Translations under genes and position numbers: made by a program
The notes under the pieces: model-generated
The model's database searches: none
Told to the model about the DNA's origin: nothing
What the model saw: only the letters and a program-made list of their open reading frames with translations
Source of the DNA: Streptomyces drozdowiczii
Lineage (GTDB): Bacteria; Actinomycetota; Actinomycetes; Streptomycetales; Streptomycetaceae
DNA: 64,000 bases
NCBI RefSeq assembly: GCF_026167665.1
Contig: NZ_CP098740.1
Location: 6,572,001 to 6,636,000, forward strand
Reading direction: 5' to 3'
In this document: piece by piece, positions 28,605 to 38,272 of the stretch
Position numbering within the stretch: the first letter of the stretch is position 1
Layout: each line of letters opens with the position of its first letter

Positions 28605-30937
28605 ATGAGCGATGCGCATGCGGCCGGGATGATCCGCGTGGTCGGCGCGGCGACGAACAACCTCAGGGACGTCACCGTCGACGTCCCCAAGAAGGCGCTC
28701 ACCGTCGTCACGGGGGTGTCCGGCTCGGGCAAGTCGTCGCTGGTGCTGGACACGATCGCGGCCGAGGCCCAGCGGCTGGTCAACGACGCCTACCCGACCT
28801 TCGTACGCAACCGGCTGCCGCAGCTGCCCGCCCCGAGGTCCAGTCGATGGACGGGCTCACCTTCACGGCGCTGATCGACCAGCGCCGCTTCACCGGCAAC
28901 GCCCGCTCGGTCGTGGCGACCGCCTGCGACGTCGCACCGCTGATGCGGCTGGTGTTCTCCCGGATCGGCGAACCGTCCGCCGGCTACACACCCGCGTACT
29001 CCTTCAACGACCCGACGGGAATGTGCCCGGAGTGCGAGGGCATCGGCACCGTGGTCGACATCGACCCCGCCGAACTCATCGACCCGGAGAAGTCCATCAA
29101 CGACGGGCCCGTCCGGTTCAGCCTGTTCCGGCGGGGCGGATACCGGTGGAAGCGGTTCGCGTACAGCGGTCTGTTCGACCGGGACAAGCCGCTGAAGGAC
29201 TACACGGACGAGGAGATGGACCTCTTCCTCCACGCCGAGCAGCTGAAACTCCCGAACCCGGACCCGGAGTTCCCCAAGACCGCCCGCTTCGACGGCGTCA
29301 TCACCCGCATGCGCGACACCTTCGTCAAGAACCACCCGACGAAGATCTCCGCGCAGGTCCGCGAGGAACTGGACCGCATCACCACCCGCCACACCTGCCC
29401 GGAGTGCCGCGGCACCCGGCTCAACGAGGCGGCCAGGGCCAGCCTGATCGACGGCCGTTCCCTCGCGGACTGGTCGGCCATGTCGGTCACCCGGCTACGG
29501 GAACTGCTGGCGGACACCCACGACCCGCGTGTCGAGCCCGCGCTCGACGGCATCCGCGCCACCCTCGACGCCCTCCGCTCCGTGGGCCTGGGCTACCTCT
29601 CCCTGGACCGGACCTCGTCCACCCTCTCCGGCGGCGAGGCCCAGCGCGTGAAGATCGTCCGCCACCTGGGCAGCGCCCTCACCGACGTCACCTATGTGTT
29701 CGACGAGCCCTCGGTCGGCCTGCACCCCGTGGACGTCCACCTCCTCACCCATCTGCTGCTCCGGCTGCGGGACTCGGGCAACACCGTGCTGGTGGTCGAG
29801 CACCACCGGCAGATGATCGACATCGCGGACCACGTCATCGACGTCGGCCCGGGCGCCGGGGCCGACGGCGGGCGGATCGAGTTCGAGGGCACGCCGGACG
29901 CGCTGCGGACGAGCGGAACCGTGACCGGGCGGCTGCTCGGCACTCCCCTGGAGGTCGCGACCACCGCCCGCCCCCGGCAGGGCTCCGCCGTCGTCCGGAA
30001 GGCCCGGGCCAACAACCTGACCGGCTTCGACGCCGAGATCCCGCTCGGCGTCCTCACCGCCGTCACCGGAGTCGCCGGCTCCGGCAAGAGCTCCCTCGCC
30101 ACCCGGGAACTCCCCTCCCAGCACCCCGAGTTCACCGTCGTGGGCCAGGACCCGCTGCGCGGCGGGCAGCGGTCCACCTCGCTCTCCGTCCTCGGCGTCG
30201 CCGACCACGTCCGGGGCGCGTTCGCCGGGGCATCGGACCTGGACCCGTCCTGGTTCAGCTTCAACTCCAAGGGCGCCTGCCCCGCCTGCCGGGGCAAGGG
30301 CCACCTCACCACCGAGCTGGCCTTCCTGGACGACGTCTCCACGCCGTGCGACGTCTGCGGCGGCCTGCGCTTCAACGACACCGCCCTCGCCGTCACGGTA
30401 CGCGGCAGCACCATCGCCGACGTGCTCTCCATGGCCGCACACGAACTCGCGGACCAGTTCCCCGACGACCCCGGGATCGTCGCGGCGATGTCCTGGCAGC
30501 AACGCGTCGGCCTCGGCTACATCGCCGTCGGCCAGTCCCTCGACACCCTCTCCGGCGGCGAGAAGCAGCGCCTCCTCCTGGCGCGCCACCTCAACGGCGT
30601 GGACGACATGGCCGGCGAACGGATCGTCCTGGACGAGCCGACCACCGGACTGCACCCCAGCGACGTGGACCGGATCAACGTGCTCTTCGACGACCTCCTG
30701 GAGGCCGGTGCCACGCTCGTCGTGGTCGAGCACAACCTCCGCGTCGTCGCCCGCGCCGACCACGTCATCGACATCGGGCCCGGTGCCGGCACCGACGGCG
30801 GCCGGATCGTCTTCACCGGCACCCCCGCCGCCCTCCTCCGCGACGACACCTCGCTGACCGGCCGCGCCCTCCGGCTCGCCTCCGCCCCGGAGACCCGGAC
30901 GCGCCGTAAGAAGACCCGTGGCCGTACGGCAGAGTAG
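28605..30937 (+). pseudogene. UvrA-like ABC ATPase (excinuclease-type resistance protein) with a frameshift
   Basis: The N-terminus (ATG 28605, Walker A GVSGSGKSS) reads in one frame to about 28835; the rest (701 codons) is in another. At 28833-28837 the reading would continue as Ala-Pro-Glu-Val-Gln-Ser-Met if one G were added, so a single base is missing. The remainder is intact: zinc-finger CxxC pairs (CPECEG, CPECRG, CPACRG, CDVCGG), second Walker A GVAGSGKSS, signatures LSGGEAQR and LSGGEKQR, Walker B YVFDEPS and IVLDEPT. Total about 777 aa, the length of short UvrA-like proteins linked to DNA-binding drug resistance. It may be a sequencing error, a true pseudogene, or a product restarted at ATG 28847 without its first Walker A. 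Confidence 0.85.
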
Positions 30938-31448: not shown

Positions 31449-32363
31449 TCACGTCCGACGCCGGTACGCGAACACCCACCGGTTCCCCTCCAACGCGTCG
31501 TTCGGCTCCGGCAGCGGACCGCGCCCGTGGCGGCGGGTGAACTCGAAGGGCGTGTGCGTCGACGCGGACCAGCCCCTCGCGGCGAGCCGGCCCGCCGAGT
31601 CGGGGCGCGGGCCCGGGTCGAAGAGGCCCAGCAGGTCGATGCCGATCTGTTCACGCGTCGCCGTGTAGATCGCGCTGTCCCGGTACGCCATGAGGTCCGC
31701 CTCCAGCTTCGCCTCGAAGGCCAGGGCGCTCCCCTCGGTGGCCAGCAGGTCCACGGTGTCCACGAGATACGTCTCGGCCGGGCCCGGCAGGTAGAACAAC
31801 AGCCCCTCCGCCAGCCAGATGCTCGGCGCCGCCGGGTCGAAGCCCGAAGCGGTCAGCGCGGTGACCCAGTCGTCGCGCAGGTCGACCGGGATCGGCACCC
31901 GCTTCACCTTCGGCGCGGCCGACAGGCCCGCGAGGACCTGGTGCTTGAAGGCCAGCACGCCCGCCCGGTCGACCTCGAAGAACACACAGTCCGACGGCCA
32001 GTCCAGCCGGAACGCCCGGGTGTCCAGCCCGGCCCCCAGCAGCACCACCTGGCGGGCGCCCGTCAGCACCGACCGTACGACGAAGTCGTCCAGGACCCGC
32101 GTCCGCAGCCCGAAGTAGCGGGCGAACCGGCCCCACAACGCGTTCTCGTCCCCGTCGGGCACCTCCTCGATCCGCACCGGCCACCCGTCGCAGGCCGGCG
32201 CGGCCCGCACGAAGTGCTCGGCGTAGACGTCGCGGGCCAGGCTGTCGCCGCGACGGGTCTCGATCGCCCGGGCGGCGGCGACCAGGAGGGCGGTCAGCCC
32301 CACACCCCCGCCCACGCCCCCCGCAGCCAGCTCCTCGGACGTCGTACCGCATACCTCGTTCAT
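31449..32363 (-). CDS. SAM-dependent methyltransferase, LCM/TIGR00027 type
   Basis: 304 aa; ATG at 32363, preceded by GGAGGGAAG and overlapping the alcohol dehydrogenase stop as ATGA. SAM-binding motif VVLLGAGLDTRAFRLDWP (about 105-122), then FFEVDRAGVLAFK, VPIPVDLRDDW and SIWLAEGLLFYLP, all hallmarks of the leucine-carboxyl-methyltransferase-like (PPM) family. Members O-methylate carboxylates or hydroxyls of small molecules. As the last gene of the furan-synthase operon it is a candidate tailoring O-methyltransferase for the furan product. Confidence 0.9.
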   Translation of the reverse strand: MNEVCGTTSEELAAGGVGGGVGLTALLVAAARAIETRRGDSLARDVYAEHFVRAAPACDGWPVRIEEVPDGDENALWGRFARYFGLRTRVLDDFVVRSVLTGARQVVLLGAGLDTRAFRLDWPSDCVFFEVDRAGVLAFKHQVLAGLSAAPKVKRVPIPVDLRDDWVTALTASGFDPAAPSIWLAEGLLFYLPGPAETYLVDTVDLLATEGSALAFEAKLEADLMAYRDSAIYTATREQIGIDLLGLFDPGPRPDSAGRLAARGWSASTHTPFEFTRRHGRGPLPEPNDALEGNRWVFAYRRRT

Positions 32364-33472
32364 CGGCTTCTTCCCTCCGGAATCAGGACGGGTTTGACCA
32401 CCCGGCCCGCTTCGCAGTCGCGTTCGGCCTCGTTGATCTCGGCCAGGGGATAGGTACGGATCAGCTGGTCGAAGGGGAACCGCCCGGCCCGCCACAGCTG
32501 CGTGAGTACGGGGATCAGCAGCGCCGGCACCGCGTCCCCCTCGCAGATGTGGCGGACGCTCCGGCCCCGGTCCAGCGTCCCCGGCTCCAGCGCCAGGGCG
32601 GTGTGCAGCCGCGCCACCAGCCCCAGCGTCCCGGTCGGGCGCAGCGCCAGGAGCGCGTCGTTGATCAGCGCCGGCGACGCCGTCGTGTCCAGCGCGTACC
32701 GCGCGCCGCCGTCCGTCAGCCCGCGGACGCGCTCCGGCAGCCCGGCCGCGTCGGCGGACAGCGGGACGGCGCCGAACCGCTCGGCGAGCTCCAGCCGCTG
32801 CGGCAGCCGGTCCACCGCCACGACCGGCACACCGGCCGCCCGCGCCGCCATGACCGCGGCGAGCCCTACCGCCCCGGCACCGAGGACCACCAGCGGGTCG
32901 CCGGGACCGGCGCGGAAGGTGTTCAGCACCGCCCCGGCCCCGGTGAGGAAGCCGCAGCCGAGCGGCCCGAGCAGTTCGACGGGCAGCGCGGGATCGACGC
33001 GGACGGCGTTGCGGGCGGACACGAGCGCGTAATCGGCGAACGAGGACTGGCCGAACCACCGGGGTGCCAGCGCCTTCCCGTCCGCGTCGCCGAGCCGGGA
33101 CGGCTCCCGCGCACGTCCGCCGAAGAGGTTGAGGGCGGCGAAGGAGTCGCAGTACGCGGGGGCCGCGCCCCGGCAGTTCCGGCAGTGCCCGCAGGAGTCG
33201 AAGCTCAGCACCACAGGGTCGCCGACGCGGATCTCCGTACCGGGCCCGCCGCCCGACCCCACGACGACCCCGGCCCCCTCGTGACCGAGGACCGCCGGCA
33301 GCGGGCTGCGCCCGGCCGACCGGCGCACCGCGAGGTCGGTCCGGCACATCCCGGCGCCCGCGATCTCCACCAGCAGCTCACCGGCGGCGGGCTCGGTGTG
33401 CAGGACGACGTCCTCGACCGCGAACGGCTCCTCGTACGCGCGCAGCACCGCCGCCCGGAATCTCCTGGTCAC
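32360..33472 (-). CDS. Zinc-dependent alcohol dehydrogenase (aryl-alcohol type)
   Basis: 370 aa from the GTG at 33472, preceded by GGAGGCGCC; the start overlaps the aldehyde dehydrogenase stop as GTGA. Catalytic zinc ligands Cys in GAGMCRTD and His in LGHEGAGVV; structural zinc cysteines in CGHCRNCRGAAPAYC; Rossmann motif VVLGAGAVGLAAV. Overall similar to benzyl/aryl-alcohol dehydrogenases. In this operon it could oxidise or reduce the hydroxymethyl/aldehyde group of a furan made by the MfnB-like enzyme; that role is inference from context. Confidence 0.92.
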   Translation of the reverse strand: MTRRFRAAVLRAYEEPFAVEDVVLHTEPAAGELLVEIAGAGMCRTDLAVRRSAGRSPLPAVLGHEGAGVVVGSGGGPGTEIRVGDPVVLSFDSCGHCRNCRGAAPAYCDSFAALNLFGGRAREPSRLGDADGKALAPRWFGQSSFADYALVSARNAVRVDPALPVELLGPLGCGFLTGAGAVLNTFRAGPGDPLVVLGAGAVGLAAVMAARAAGVPVVAVDRLPQRLELAERFGAVPLSADAAGLPERVRGLTDGGARYALDTTASPALINDALLALRPTGTLGLVARLHTALALEPGTLDRGRSVRHICEGDAVPALLIPVLTQLWRAGRFPFDQLIRTYPLAEINEAERDCEAGRVVKPVLIPEGRSR

Positions 33473-34854
33473 GGCGCCTCCGGGCAGTGGACGACGAACG
33501 GCCGCAGATTTCCGTACAGCCCCCACGGCCCGCCCGCGACGCCGACCCCGCTGTCCTTGATCCCGGCGAACGGCTGGGCGAGCGACAGTTCGGCGTGATG
33601 GTTGATCCAGGCCGTGCCGCACTCCAGCCGGTCCGCCACCGCCTCCGCCCGGTCGAGATCAGTGCCCCAGACGGAGCCGCCGAGGCCGAAGCCCGTGCCG
33701 TTGGCCGCGGCGACCGCCTCGTCGACGCTCCCGTACGGCAGCACCGGCAGGACCGGCCCGAACTGCTCCTCGGTCACCACCGCGCTGTCCGGCGGCACAT
33801 CGGTGAGGACCGTCGGCGCGAAGAAGTGGCCGGGCCTGTCCAGCCGGTGGCCGCCGGCCGCGGCCCGGGCGCCGTCGGCCAGGGCCCGTGCGGTCAGCTC
33901 CGCCACCCGGGCCAGCTGCGGGGCGTTGTTGACCGGACCGATGCGGGTGTCCGGGTCCAGACCGCTGCCCACCGCGACGGACTTCGCCCGCAGGGCCAGC
34001 GCCTCGACCACCTCCGCGTGCAGCCGGGCGGGGGCGTACACCCGCTTGACCGCCATGCAGACCTGCCCGCAGTTGCGGAACGCGGCCCAGAACAGCCGGT
34101 CCGCGACCCCCTCCACATCGACGTCGTCCAGCAGGACGGCCGCGTCGTTCCCGCCCAGTTCCAGGGTGACCCGGGCGAGGGAGGCCGCCGCCCCCTCGGC
34201 GACCGCCCGCCCGGTGGGCACCGAACCGGTGAAGGTGACGTGCCGGATGCCCGGATGCGAGGCGAGGCGCGCCCCGAGGGGTTCGCGCCCGGTGACCACG
34301 GTCAGCACGTCCTCGGGCAGGACGGCCGCCAGCACGGACCCCAGCAGCCGGGTGGCCAGGGGGGTGTACGGGGACGGTTTGAGGACCACGGTGTTGCCCG
34401 CCGCGAGCGCGGGCGCGAACTTCGCCGCCGCCAGTTGCAGCGGGAAGTTCCACGGCACGATCGCGGCCACCGGCCCGACGGGACGCCAGCGGACCTCGCT
34501 GCGCACGGGCCGCCCGTCGCCGATCCGCCGCGTCCTCGGGGCCAGGTCCGCGAAGTACCGCAGCCGGGCCGCCGTGCGGGCGACCTCGGCGTACGACTCG
34601 GCCAGCGGCTTGCCCTGCTCCCGGGTGAGCAGCCGCGCCAGCCCGTCACCGGCCGCCTCCACGGCGTCGGCCGCGCCGCTCAGCGCGTGCGTCCGGGCGG
34701 CGGCGTCGGCCCGCCACCCGGCCCAGGCCCGGTGCGCCCGGCCGACCACCGCGTCCAGCTCGTCCGGCCGCATGTCGGGGGCCTCGCCGCAGGTCTCCCC
34801 GGTGGCCGGGTCGGTCACGGAGATCCCGCGCCCCGCCTCGTCGGAGGTCCGCAT
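33469..34854 (-). CDS. Aldehyde dehydrogenase (NAD(P)+-dependent)
   Basis: 461 aa from the ATG at 34854; this starts seven bases after the MfnB-like stop. ALDH motifs in order: PWNFPLQLAAAKFAPALAAG, KPSPYTPL, FTGSVPTGR, catalytic Glu in LELGGND, catalytic Cys in NCGQVCMAVKR, and EEQFGPVLPV. Both catalytic residues are present. Most like succinate-semialdehyde/aromatic-aldehyde dehydrogenases. In context it could oxidise the furan aldehyde to a carboxylate, giving a substrate for the methyltransferase two genes on. Confidence 0.93.
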   Translation of the reverse strand: MRTSDEAGRGISVTDPATGETCGEAPDMRPDELDAVVGRAHRAWAGWRADAAARTHALSGAADAVEAAGDGLARLLTREQGKPLAESYAEVARTAARLRYFADLAPRTRRIGDGRPVRSEVRWRPVGPVAAIVPWNFPLQLAAAKFAPALAAGNTVVLKPSPYTPLATRLLGSVLAAVLPEDVLTVVTGREPLGARLASHPGIRHVTFTGSVPTGRAVAEGAAASLARVTLELGGNDAAVLLDDVDVEGVADRLFWAAFRNCGQVCMAVKRVYAPARLHAEVVEALALRAKSVAVGSGLDPDTRIGPVNNAPQLARVAELTARALADGARAAAGGHRLDRPGHFFAPTVLTDVPPDSAVVTEEQFGPVLPVLPYGSVDEAVAAANGTGFGLGGSVWGTDLDRAEAVADRLECGTAWINHHAELSLAQPFAGIKDSGVGVAGGPWGLYGNLRPFVVHCPEAP

Positions 34855-34861
34855 CCGGCGG

Positions 34862-35617
34862 TCAGCCCGCGAGGGTGACGCCGGCCGCGAACTCCCGGGC
34901 GTGCCGGTCCATCTCCGCCCGGAACGCCGCCACCAGATGCGGCTGAATCCTTCCGGCATTGCGGTCACCGCCCTCGCAGACCGCCCCGCGCACCCCCACG
35001 ATGTCCGTGCCGATCCGGGTCAGCGTCGCGAGGTCCGCCTGCTTCACGCTGCCCGCGAGGGCCGCGAGCAGCCCGGAGGCGTGGGCGAGACCGACGAACT
35101 CCGCGCAGACGTCCGGCGGTACGTGGTCGAACAGCCGGGAGCCGTCCTTGATCGCCGTGTCGAGCATGGCCGCGTCGGCACCGGACCGGGCCGCGATGTC
35201 GGGGAGGGCGAGCGGATTGACGCATCCGACGCGGTGGGCGTCGGCATACCCGGAGGCGACGACCAGCGCCTCCGGACGGTAGTCCTTCACCGCCCGGACG
35301 ACGGCCCGCATGACGTCGATGCCCTGGTCGGGCGTCGTGCACCCGTAGAGCCCGACCTTGATGTACGTGGCCCCGGAGACGACGGCCCCGAGCGCCGCCT
35401 GCGCCACCGTGCCGGGCTTGTACGGGACGTCGCCCACGGTCGCGGACACCGGCTTGCCGGCCGGGACCGCCTCCCGGATCTCCCTGATCACCCAGGGGAA
35501 GTTGGCGCCGAGCGACCCCTCGTCGGGCTTCTTCACATCGACGATGTCGAGATACTCCGCCGCCTTCGCACAGTCGACGGCTTCCTCGACGCTGTCCGGA
35601 GAGATGAGAAGCAACAC
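34862..35617 (-). CDS. mfnB: MfnB-type (5-formylfuran-3-yl)methyl phosphate synthase
   Basis: 251 aa; GTG at 35617, eight bases from AAGGAG. TIM-barrel enzyme that in methanogens and some methylotrophs joins two glyceraldehyde 3-phosphates into a furan aldehyde phosphate for methanofuran. Family motifs are strong: [67 protein letters not shown] and [15 protein letters not shown]. Lys29, Lys87, Lys157, Asp27 and Asp153 are the counterparts of the archaeal active-site residues (offset by two). It is the first gene of a four-gene operon with two dehydrogenases and a methyltransferase. No other methanofuran genes are in the window, so the furan probably goes to another product. Confidence 0.93.
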
Positions 35618-35790
35618 CTTGGGCTCCTTCCGCCGCAGGGGTGCGGATCACCAGGTTGACCTGCGGTGCGCTCATCATTTCCGCCGCCCAGGGGCCCCGG
35701 TAGAGCGCGCGGGACCCCCTGGGAGCACAGCGCCCGCGCGCAATGCGCCGCACACCCCGGCGCAGGGGAGCACCGTGGGATCATGCGGGG

Positions 35791-36143: not shown

Positions 36144-38045
36144 TCAGCTCTCCAGGGAGAAGGTCTGCGCCGCCGATCCGTCGCACGGCTGCTGCGAGAG
36201 GTGCGCCCCGTTGGCCGTGGAACCGCCGTCCACGGCCAGGCACTTGCCGCTGTTGCGGGCGACGAAGCGGTAGCGGCCGGCCGCGCCGGAGGGCTCCGCC
36301 CGCCACTGCTGGTTGGTGCCGCCCACGTACGACCACAGGTGCACCCGGGTGCCGGACGCGGTCGCGCCGGGGCCGCCGTCGACGTCCCACACCTTGCTGT
36401 TGTGCCGGTTGACGACCTGGTAGGTGCCGTCACCTGCGGACCGGAACTGCCAGCTCTGGTTGGCGCCGGTGGTGCAGCTCCACTGCTGGAGCGCGGTCCC
36501 GTCGGCGGTGCCCCAGTCGGCGGCGTCCAGGCAGGTACCGCTGTTGGCGTTCTTCACCCGGTACCAGGCGGAGGAGTCGATGGAGCCCGTGGGCGGCTCC
36601 GTGGTGCCGCCGTCGGTGCCGCTCCACACGAAGGTGGCGACCGCGCCCGCGGGCAGCGTGTAGACCAGCGACCTGCCGTTGTCGGTCAGCGAGAACTTCT
36701 GCGCGCTCGTGGCCGAGTTGACGACGTACGCGGCACGGCTGCCGTCCGGGTTCTGGAAGGCGACGTTCTCCACCCCGCCGCTGCCCTGGCTGGTCGAGCC
36801 GATGCGGGTGGCGCCGGGCTTGACGAACTTGGCGAGCTGCCCCAGCACGTAGTACTCGGCGTTACGGGTCACATTGCCGTTCGCGATCTCCACGACGCCG
36901 TTGCAGCGGTCCGAGCAACCGCCCTGGTGCGGGCCGCCGTTCTGGTCCAGGGCCAGGTTCCAGTCGACGACCGTCTCGCCGCCGTTGCGCATGTTCTGCA
37001 CGACGAGGTTCTCGGCGTGCCACTTGAGGGTGTCGGCGAACGTGGTGGACCGGTCGGCGCTCTCCGTACCGGAGCACTCCGTGAAGAACACCCGCTTCCC
37101 GGCGTTGACGACCTGCTGCTGGGCGGACGGGTTGCCGCCGTAGCAGTGGAACGCGGCGCCGATCACCCGGCTCATGCCCGGGGTCGCGTTGAAGACCTCC
37201 AACGGGTAGTTGGGGTGGTCCCAGTTGTGGTCGAAGGCCAGCAGGTTCGTCGGCAGGTTCGCCGCCGTCAGCGTACGGTCGAGCACCTTGAAGAAGTCCG
37301 CCTGCTGCGACGACGACATGGTCATCGACGGGTAACTCGCGGCGAACTCCGGCTCGTTCTGCACGGTGAGGTCGGTCAGCGTGATGCCCTGCTGCCCGTA
37401 CGCCTTGATCGCCTTGACCAGGTAGTCGGCGTACGCCTGGTAGCTGTCCGTCTTGAGGCTGCCGCCGTTCAGCGCGTTGTTGGTCTTCATCCAGGCGGGC
37501 GGCGACCAGGGTGTGCCCATGAAGCGGATGGCCGGGTTGACCGAGGTGGCCTGCTTCAGGACCGGAATGATCTCGGCCTTGTCCCGGTCGATGGAGAAGG
37601 AGCCGCGGGTGTCCTCGTACGTGTAGAGGCTGCTGTCCGCGTTGAAGTCGCTGCTCCCGAGCGGCTGGCGCAGATAGCTGAGCCCGATGCCGTCGCCGGC
37701 GGACGAGAACAGCGAGGTCATCAGCGCGTTCCGCTTGTCCTGCGGCAGGCCCTGGATGAGGTGGGCCGAGGCCCCGGTGACCGAGGCGCCCGCCCCGGTG
37801 AACTTCTGGCCCTTGCTGTTGGCGTCGACGCGGATGTCGACGCCCTGCGGCGAGCCCGTGAAGGCGACGGAGCCCTCGGCGGACAGCTTCTTCGCGCCGT
37901 CGGGGGTGGTGACCCACACCTGGGCCGTGGGGTCCGCGGCCTGCGCGGCCGTACCGCTGCCGGCCAGGCCGACGGCCGCGACGGCCATCGCCAGGGCCGC
38001 GCCTGCGGCGCGCGCCCGGGGGCGCGGGGGAGTGTCGTGGGACAT
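36144..38045 (-). CDS. Secreted glycoside hydrolase family 30 with C-terminal ricin-type CBM13
   Basis: 633 aa; ATG at 38045, with AAGGAGAG upstream. Signal peptide about 1-36. The GH30 barrel spans about 40-400, with acid/base Glu in TVQNEPEF (about 230) and nucleophile Glu in FFTECSGTE (about 323); FMGTPWSPPAWMK, FDHNWDHPNYP and GAAFHCYGG are further family motifs. A beta domain follows, then a Gly/Thr linker and a ricin-B/CBM13 trefoil (about 495-633) with LQQW, QSW, QQW and QTF repeats. The pattern is closest to GH30 subfamily 3 endo-beta-1,6-glucanases, which attack fungal walls; glucosylceramidase is the alternative. It faces a TetR gene across a 227-base gap. Confidence 0.92.
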   Translation of the reverse strand: MSHDTPPRPRARAAGAALAMAVAAVGLAGSGTAAQAADPTAQVWVTTPDGAKKLSAEGSVAFTGSPQGVDIRVDANSKGQKFTGAGASVTGASAHLIQGLPQDKRNALMTSLFSSAGDGIGLSYLRQPLGSSDFNADSSLYTYEDTRGSFSIDRDKAEIIPVLKQATSVNPAIRFMGTPWSPPAWMKTNNALNGGSLKTDSYQAYADYLVKAIKAYGQQGITLTDLTVQNEPEFAASYPSMTMSSSQQADFFKVLDRTLTAANLPTNLLAFDHNWDHPNYPLEVFNATPGMSRVIGAAFHCYGGNPSAQQQVVNAGKRVFFTECSGTESADRSTTFADTLKWHAENLVVQNMRNGGETVVDWNLALDQNGGPHQGGCSDRCNGVVEIANGNVTRNAEYYVLGQLAKFVKPGATRIGSTSQGSGGVENVAFQNPDGSRAAYVVNSATSAQKFSLTDNGRSLVYTLPAGAVATFVWSGTDGGTTEPPTGSIDSSAWYRVKNANSGTCLDAADWGTADGTALQQWSCTTGANQSWQFRSAGDGTYQVVNRHNSKVWDVDGGPGATASGTRVHLWSYVGGTNQQWRAEPSGAAGRYRFVARNSGKCLAVDGGSTANGAHLSQQPCDGSAAQTFSLES

Positions 38046-38148
38046 GTGCGGCTCTCCTTCGGTCATGCCTGGGGGAGGACATGGCGCGTCCCTCGGACAC
38101 CGTGGCGGGGCGCGGTTCCGTGGACGACGGCGATATGAAAGCACACCC

Positions 38149-38162
38149 ACTAAGTGGTTAGT
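38149..38162. promoter_or_regulatory. Operator candidate ACTAA-GTGG-TTAGT between GH30 and TetR
   Basis: A perfect 5-bp inverted repeat with 4-base spacer (38149-38162), followed by AAGTAGT, in an unusually AT-rich patch of the divergent gap. A TetR dimer from the adjacent gene could bind here and control both genes. Confidence 0.5.
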
Positions 38163-38272
38163 AAGTAGTCGGACGCGCATTGGTGCGGGAGGCCCCCGAG
38201 CCCCCGCCGCCCCCAGGTCAGCGCCCCGGACGCCCCCGTTGACCCCCGTTCCGGCCGGTCTAAGCTGTGCCG

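Follow-up and report, generated by a model that had tools for sequence, protein, structure and literature searches.

An accessory four-gene operon of Streptomyces headed by an MfnB homologue, with dimethyl furan-2,4-dicarboxylate as its probable product

We analysed a stretch of 64,000 nucleotides of Streptomyces drozdowiczii DNA (contig NZ_CP098740.1, positions 6,572,001 to 6,636,000; hereafter the window), which carries on its minus strand, at positions 31449-35617, four genes coding for an MfnB-type furan synthase (mfnB), an aldehyde dehydrogenase (ALDH), an alcohol dehydrogenase (ADH) and a methyltransferase (MT). These four genes form a real, self-contained and conserved operon. From the chemistry of the enzyme families we infer that this cassette probably directs the synthesis of a small furan that can diffuse, with dimethyl furan-2,4-dicarboxylate as the likeliest candidate.

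Results

The four genes are conserved as a unit

An earlier note on this DNA had proposed the gene positions, the organisation as a four-gene operon, the spacing of 7 bases between the mfnB stop codon and the ATG of the ALDH gene, and the GTGA and ATGA overlaps at the ALDH/ADH and ADH/MT junctions, in that order; all were confirmed from the sequence (Table 1). It had also suggested that the same order be sought in other actinobacteria, and in related genomes the genes proved to be conserved together. In a genus sample of 392 Streptomyces-type genomes, the window's own included, MfnB was found in 95 (24%), a 96th match (G274, E 9.9e-4) being due to chance. The cassette ADH, counted at E <= 1e-90, was found in 98 genomes, 94 of which are MfnB genomes (94 of 95; G143 in part), and the only MfnB genome without a counted ADH is G247, whose cassette is broken up. 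The 297 genomes devoid of MfnB gave only two partial ADH copies with 73-77% identity (G361 and G376) and two paralogues near 50% (G103 and G262). The partial copies, G361:C302 and G376:C28, are possibly remnants of a lost cassette.

The gene neighbourhood was compared in 40 regions of up to 20 kb, 37 from the genus and 3 from another family of the order. All 40 contained MfnB, ADH and MT together with an ALDH gene or some part of one; the ALDH gene was broken or shortened in 5, and MT lay on the opposite strand in 2. The flanking genes were mostly unshared. Exceptions were the window, L042 and L044, which form a close trio, and an EF-hand (calcium-binding) protein gene that 15 of the 40 regions contain. 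Adding 80 named loci (the best 80 of 203) gave 120 loci, 115 of them distinct by their first 700 bases; since 3 of these were cut by contig ends, 112 were scored, a gene being taken as complete if a single reading frame spanned 85% or more of the query with an identity of no less than 55%. The cassette was complete and collinear in 90 of the 112 loci. Because the same four-gene order recurs in so many loci, each gene being covered over at least 85% of its length, it is more than chance. In 11 loci MT was turned round (one of them covers 84%).

Distribution and mobility of the cassette

MfnB was matched in 65 of the 293 genomes of an order sample, G274 again by chance, and in a phylum sample PF04476 had a match in 6 of 396 genomes, 5 of them over the cut-off. 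The three loci from another family of the order belong to large genomes (one contig of 10,467,782 bases), and the named loci (best 80 of 203) include 3 titled Kitasatospora and 1 Actinacidiphila. Two of the phylum-sample matches, L195 and L196, lie outside the order and their MfnB homologues are about 47% identical. As a candidate for the cassette in other Actinomycetota, L196 was rejected, having no cassette partner within 4.3 kb downstream on its contig, and the L195 contig, which ends about 840 bases downstream of the MfnB homologue, is uninformative on partners.

Among 18 single-contig MfnB genomes, mfnB lies within 11% of a chromosome end in 15 (two lengths were rounded). Furthermore, 37 plasmid records matched MfnB, and for 13 of these the identity was 80-95% (11 from Streptomyces and 2 records of Streptantibioticus cattleyicolor). 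We examined seven of these 13 plasmids and found the whole cassette on six; the remaining one, pSCAT of S. cattleyicolor, carries MfnB, ADH and an inverted MT. On L192 (NZ_CP108584.1), a 70 kb circular plasmid of NBC_01187, genes for Tn3-family transposases lie about 2.6 kb from the cassette. With copies on plasmids and in differing surroundings, the cassette is read here as horizontally mobile. A phage origin was also considered and rejected, no match to MfnB being found among the phage records searched.

The first gene encodes an MfnB-type furan synthase

Against NCBIfam NF002573 (cut-off 341) the first protein reached 391.5 bits, and against PF04476 (cut-off 22.4) 268.7 bits; it matched the sequence of PDB 4rc1 (MJ1099) at 2.3e-81. 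The five active-site residues named in the earlier note, D27, K29, K87, D153 and K157, which include the Schiff-base lysine, are present as it had them and are identical in 115 of 115 relatives. By a count along the alignment, their MJ1099 equivalents are Asp25, Lys27, Lys85, Asp151 and Lys155. The MfnB relatives in cassette loci are 79-99% identical, and mfnB comes first wherever the order is readable. Besides sequence and active site, the protein presumably shares its reaction with MJ1099, the 4-(hydroxymethyl)-2-furancarboxaldehyde-phosphate synthase of methanofuran biosynthesis. Characterised MfnB forms 4-hydroxymethylfurfural phosphate from two molecules of glyceraldehyde 3-phosphate (PMC6604932). 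The setting differs from that of MJ1099: the Streptomyces enzyme belongs to a mobile accessory operon whose other members are an ALDH, an ADH and a methyltransferase of the carboxyl type.

Since MfnB belongs to methanofuran biosynthesis, the cassette might serve a methanofuran- or methylofuran-like C1 cofactor or have a housekeeping role. Such an association does exist on an Azospirillum plasmid (Proteobacteria, methylofuran/tetrahydromethanopterin-type neighbourhood), where an MfnB homologue with about 34% identity adjoins DUF447 and formylmethanofuran genes are found no more than about 6 kb away; the 14.7 kb examined there contained no match over 60 bits to any of the other cassette genes. 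In the window's genome, however, neither FTR (PF01913) nor DUF447 (PF04289) had a match, the same searches being positive in methanogen control genomes. Moreover, there is no aminotransferase or ligase among the four cassette proteins, and the presence of the cassette is patchy (95 of 392 genomes) with copies on plasmids. We thus consider a cofactor or housekeeping role highly improbable. The absence of methanofuran steps claimed in the earlier note holds for FTR and DUF447 across the genome; for MfnA, C, D, E and F, no homologue was found among the four cassette proteins, the genome-wide search not having included these enzymes one by one.

The ALDH, ADH and methyltransferase families fit the proposed furan chemistry

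In the ALDH alignment (111 rows), Asn136 was found in 103 rows, Glu232 in 104 and Cys266 in 106, the remainder being mostly uncovered positions. In the ADH, the zinc ligands of both the catalytic and the structural site were retained in 112 of 113 rows. Its best PDB sequence matches were 5tnx and then benzyl alcohol dehydrogenase 1f8f (2.2e-76). The overall sequence of the latter resembles that of the cassette ADH, whose substrate is a prediction. ALDH passed no NCBIfam cut-off (best 25 of 40 families) and ADH none of the 21 listed, so that family membership does not give the substrate of either enzyme.

ALDH and ADH families are common in furfural and hydroxymethylfurfural oxidation, and the two dehydrogenases might therefore detoxify or catabolise furans with MfnB as a side passenger. 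This is very hard to reconcile with an MfnB that makes a furan, leads the operon wherever the order can be read, is 79-99% identical between loci and has kept its active site throughout, and we give it hardly any weight.

The MT scored over the curated cut-offs of both LCM (PF04072; 180.8 bits, cut-off 22.3) and TIGR00027 (251.7 bits, cut-off 93.55). The residues G110, G112, D114 and R116 of its S-adenosylmethionine motif were kept in 112 of 112 rows, position 115 being variable, and D132 was replaced by E in a single row. The known folds nearest to the MT model were first two uncharacterised proteins, Rv0731c and ML2640, nearest solved structures with no stated function, and then LCMT-1, PPM1 and TYW4, the last of which we take to be a carboxyl methyltransferase. 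Because those fold neighbours whose function is known methylate carboxyl groups, the cassette MT leans to carboxyl methylation, although fold likeness by itself shows no function. The earlier note had spoken of a carboxyl/hydroxyl-type methyltransferase; the fold argument speaks for the carboxyl part and makes the hydroxyl part less favoured. Its proposal that both arms of the furan are oxidised and one is methylated fits these enzyme families.

Dimethyl furan-2,4-dicarboxylate is the probable product

As a first step, MfnB would condense two molecules of glyceraldehyde 3-phosphate into 4-(hydroxymethyl)furan-2-carboxaldehyde phosphate, as the characterised members of its family do. A host phosphatase would then free the 4-hydroxymethyl group, and ADH would oxidise this arm to the aldehyde. 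ALDH, or a host ALDH where that of the cassette is broken, would take both aldehydes to furan-2,4-dicarboxylate, whose two carboxylates would finally be methylated by the LCM-family methyltransferase to yield a volatile diester. Since MfnB chemistry followed by oxidation of both arms and double methylation gives dimethyl furan-2,4-dicarboxylate, we read this compound as the product; it has the same 2,4-substitution as the MfnB product, with both arms oxidised and methylated.

This diester is a reported metabolite of S. sahachiroi, whose biosynthesis was left open by the authors (PMC3778384). The furan-2,4-dicarboxylate derivatives expected in the earlier note thus have a counterpart in the literature, and the compound it held to be undescribed is likely one already reported from Streptomyces (PMC3778384); the signal or cofactor-like role it suggested found no support in our analysis. 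Among the papers listed in searches of an open-access library, none was seen to connect MfnB with a furan made by Streptomyces, and such a link may be in print elsewhere. The methylenomycin furans (MmfL/MmfH/MmfP) are likewise Streptomyces furan metabolites made by few genes (PMC6604932). They differ in their entry enzyme and in their core, a 4-hydroxymethyl-3-carboxylic acid with an alkyl group at C2, and the AfsA-type family of the MmfL-like entry enzyme had no match among the four cassette proteins at E <= 0.001.

A proxy for the reported producer carries the cassette

As a marker of the producer we used AlkZ of PDB 5uuj, which we take to come from S. sahachiroi, and sought it in the 392 genomes. 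A single genome, G101 (Streptomyces sp. NRRL S-340), gave a 99% match, with 6 differences in 358 residues over the longer alignment; the next matches were G100 (85%), G110 (80%) and G394 (79%). Near AlkZ, NRRL S-340 carries a nonribosomal peptide synthetase (NRPS) of 1128 aa with the condensation-peptidyl carrier protein-condensation (C-PCP-C) order published for aziA2, an APS kinase and a 1775-aa gene product that is polyketide synthase-like by its first residues. Judged from these genes the cluster is azinomycin-like; beyond AlkZ and the NRPS domain order no azinomycin enzyme was recognised by name in NRRL S-340, and one AlkZ-neighbour protein compared with PDB gave only 2-oxoglutarate/iron (2OG-Fe) dioxygenases. 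NRRL S-340 contains the complete cassette, with identities of 89, 84, 80 and 75%. This is one data point against an MfnB base rate of 24%, supportive and not decisive.

Several observations weigh against the diester as the product of the cassette. There is no phosphatase gene in the four-gene cassette, and the single MT would have to act twice. The ALDH was broken, shortened or without detectable frame in 11 of the 112 loci, MfnB and MT remaining (L048, L057, L066, L068, L071, L107, L108, L139, L144, L150 and L170, with a partial ADH as well in L057 and L144), and no ALDH match was found beside MfnB on pSCAT. Of the four members the ALDH is thus the one most often missing, so that enzymes of the host would replace it or the product would differ between loci. 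In a FastTree tree built from 113 rows, the state of the ALDH changed 9 times and the MT orientation 8 times. Since these changes rest partly on weak branches (41 of 110 inner branches are weak, and the well-supported branches in the group table force only 2 changes for each trait), repeated loss of the cassette ALDH is likely and the number of losses uncertain.

As for the producers, the link is made through the proxy NRRL S-340 and not through S. sahachiroi or S. malaysiensis themselves, and we know of no report that NRRL S-340 makes the diester. Among the four genomes with an AlkZ of at least 79% identity, MfnB is present in G101 and G394 and has no match in G100 and G110. In the second reported source, S. 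malaysiensis 8ZJF-21, the compound was identified by a gas chromatography-mass spectrometry library match only (PMC9131080), and the S. sahachiroi authors named a cluster with a pyruvate aldolase and a methyltransferase as an alternative candidate (PMC3778384).

Some of these points would be met by another end product from the same furan entry, such as a partly oxidised mono-ester (methyl 4-(hydroxymethyl)furan-2-carboxylate, for example, or the phosphate of this ester) or a furan acid that enzymes outside the cassette would take over. The lack of a phosphatase gene agrees with this, as do the ALDH defects, so that full oxidation by the cassette's own ALDH may not be needed everywhere. However, apart from the optional EF-hand gene no further gene is conserved in the flanks, and the reported Streptomyces metabolite is the diester; we thus regard another end product as rather unlikely. 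Alternatively, the diester might come from a different pathway and the cassette make something unrelated. The S. sahachiroi authors put forward polyketide or pyruvate dimerisation routes, to be tested later, besides the aldolase/methyltransferase cluster (PMC3778384), and S. sahachiroi is represented here by a proxy, not by its own genome. These routes were proposals only, however; MfnB, a furan synthase of aldolase-like type, yields a product with exactly the substitution pattern required, and the cassette is present in the closest relative of the producer that was available. A separate pathway is therefore, in our opinion, quite doubtful, and dimethyl furan-2,4-dicarboxylate remains the product that we favour.

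The upstream region and the neighbouring genes

A promoter-like element composed of CCCTACCGG (CTCTACCGG in the window) and GGAAATGATGA precedes mfnB by about 55-90 bases. It is conserved across an alignment of 111 upstream regions that excluded the 3 loci belonging to another family. No regulon was found for this element, because the exact pattern occurs only once in the window's genome. As to expression, S. coelicolor 'mfnB (SCO6440)' appears, in a study of AbrB1/B2, among the up-regulated genes picked for quantitative reverse-transcription PCR (PMC7581861).

A hairpin before the mfnB ribosome site was noticed in the window (35618-35680) and in related leaders, and is strong in L143, L140 and L101. 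We did not accept a structured RNA in the 5' leader: the mean folding z-score of 110 sequences was -1.10, on average no stronger than that of an in-gene control (-1.06; other controls -0.58, -0.07 and -0.03), RNAalifold found only 4 pairs on a 48-row alignment drawn from 68 upstream regions kept as distinct, and the one Rfam match (17.7 bits) was far under the threshold of 45.

The EF-hand gene lies near the cassette in 44 of the 115 loci, for which the flanks fetched vary in length (these include L043-L077, L058-L060, L066, L125, L160, L161, L167, L175 and L192-L194), and adjoins it on 3 of the 7 plasmids examined. Three arrangements account for most cases: the gene faces the MT end, diverges from mfnB, or directly precedes the cassette on its strand. 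In a survey of 56 hand-chosen, non-random genomes, an EF-hand homologue was found elsewhere in the genome in 12 of 24 MfnB genomes without a nearby copy, compared with 4 of 26 genomes without MfnB; the genomes with a nearby copy served as control (6 of 6). Being within the fetched flanks of only part of the loci, the gene was rejected as an obligatory fifth member.

The upstream neighbour of the operon in the window is a GH30 glycosidase with a ricin-type lectin domain (36144-38180). At 28629-30937, a UvrA-like ATPase, recognised by eye, seems to be divided between two frames (pieces of 81 aa and 696 aa that overlap near 28850), which could reflect a frameshift or a sequencing error.

Table 1. 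Coordinates of the cassette genes and upstream signals in the window.
Feature	Position	Strand	Remarks
mfnB	35617-34862	-	GTG start; PF04476 6e-80; NF002573 over cut-off
ALDH	34854-33469	-	461 aa; PF00171 3e-137; proposed oxidation of furan aldehyde(s) to carboxylate
Zinc ADH	33472-32360	-	370 aa; PF08240 and PF00107; proposed oxidation of the furanyl-methanol arm
LCM/TIGR00027 methyltransferase	32363-31449	-	304 aa; proposed carboxyl O-methyltransferase
mfnB Shine-Dalgarno GGAAGGAG	35624..35631	-	Read from sequence; well conserved across 48 aligned rows
Conserved promoter-like element TACCGG-N14-GGAAATGATGA	35672..35702	-	Upstream of mfnB; putative function

Discussion

A bolder picture, to which we give somewhat less than even odds, is that MfnB was captured from C1-cofactor biosynthesis into a mobile cassette of secondary metabolism. 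In roughly one in four Streptomyces species, this cassette would make a furan diester directly from two triose phosphates of central metabolism. Its volatile product may be a widely shared airborne signal or an antifungal, with the calcium-binding EF-hand protein as an optional but recurrent partner. If the assignment of the diester is true, the cassette would supply the genes for a Streptomyces volatile that is already known, but for which the paper that solved its structure from a culture gave no settled biosynthesis. It would also show how bacteria can build furan-2,4-dicarboxylate, which is isomeric with the polymer monomer 2,5-furandicarboxylic acid (FDCA), from triose phosphates, and would explain an operon carried by about one in four of the Streptomyces-type genomes sampled.

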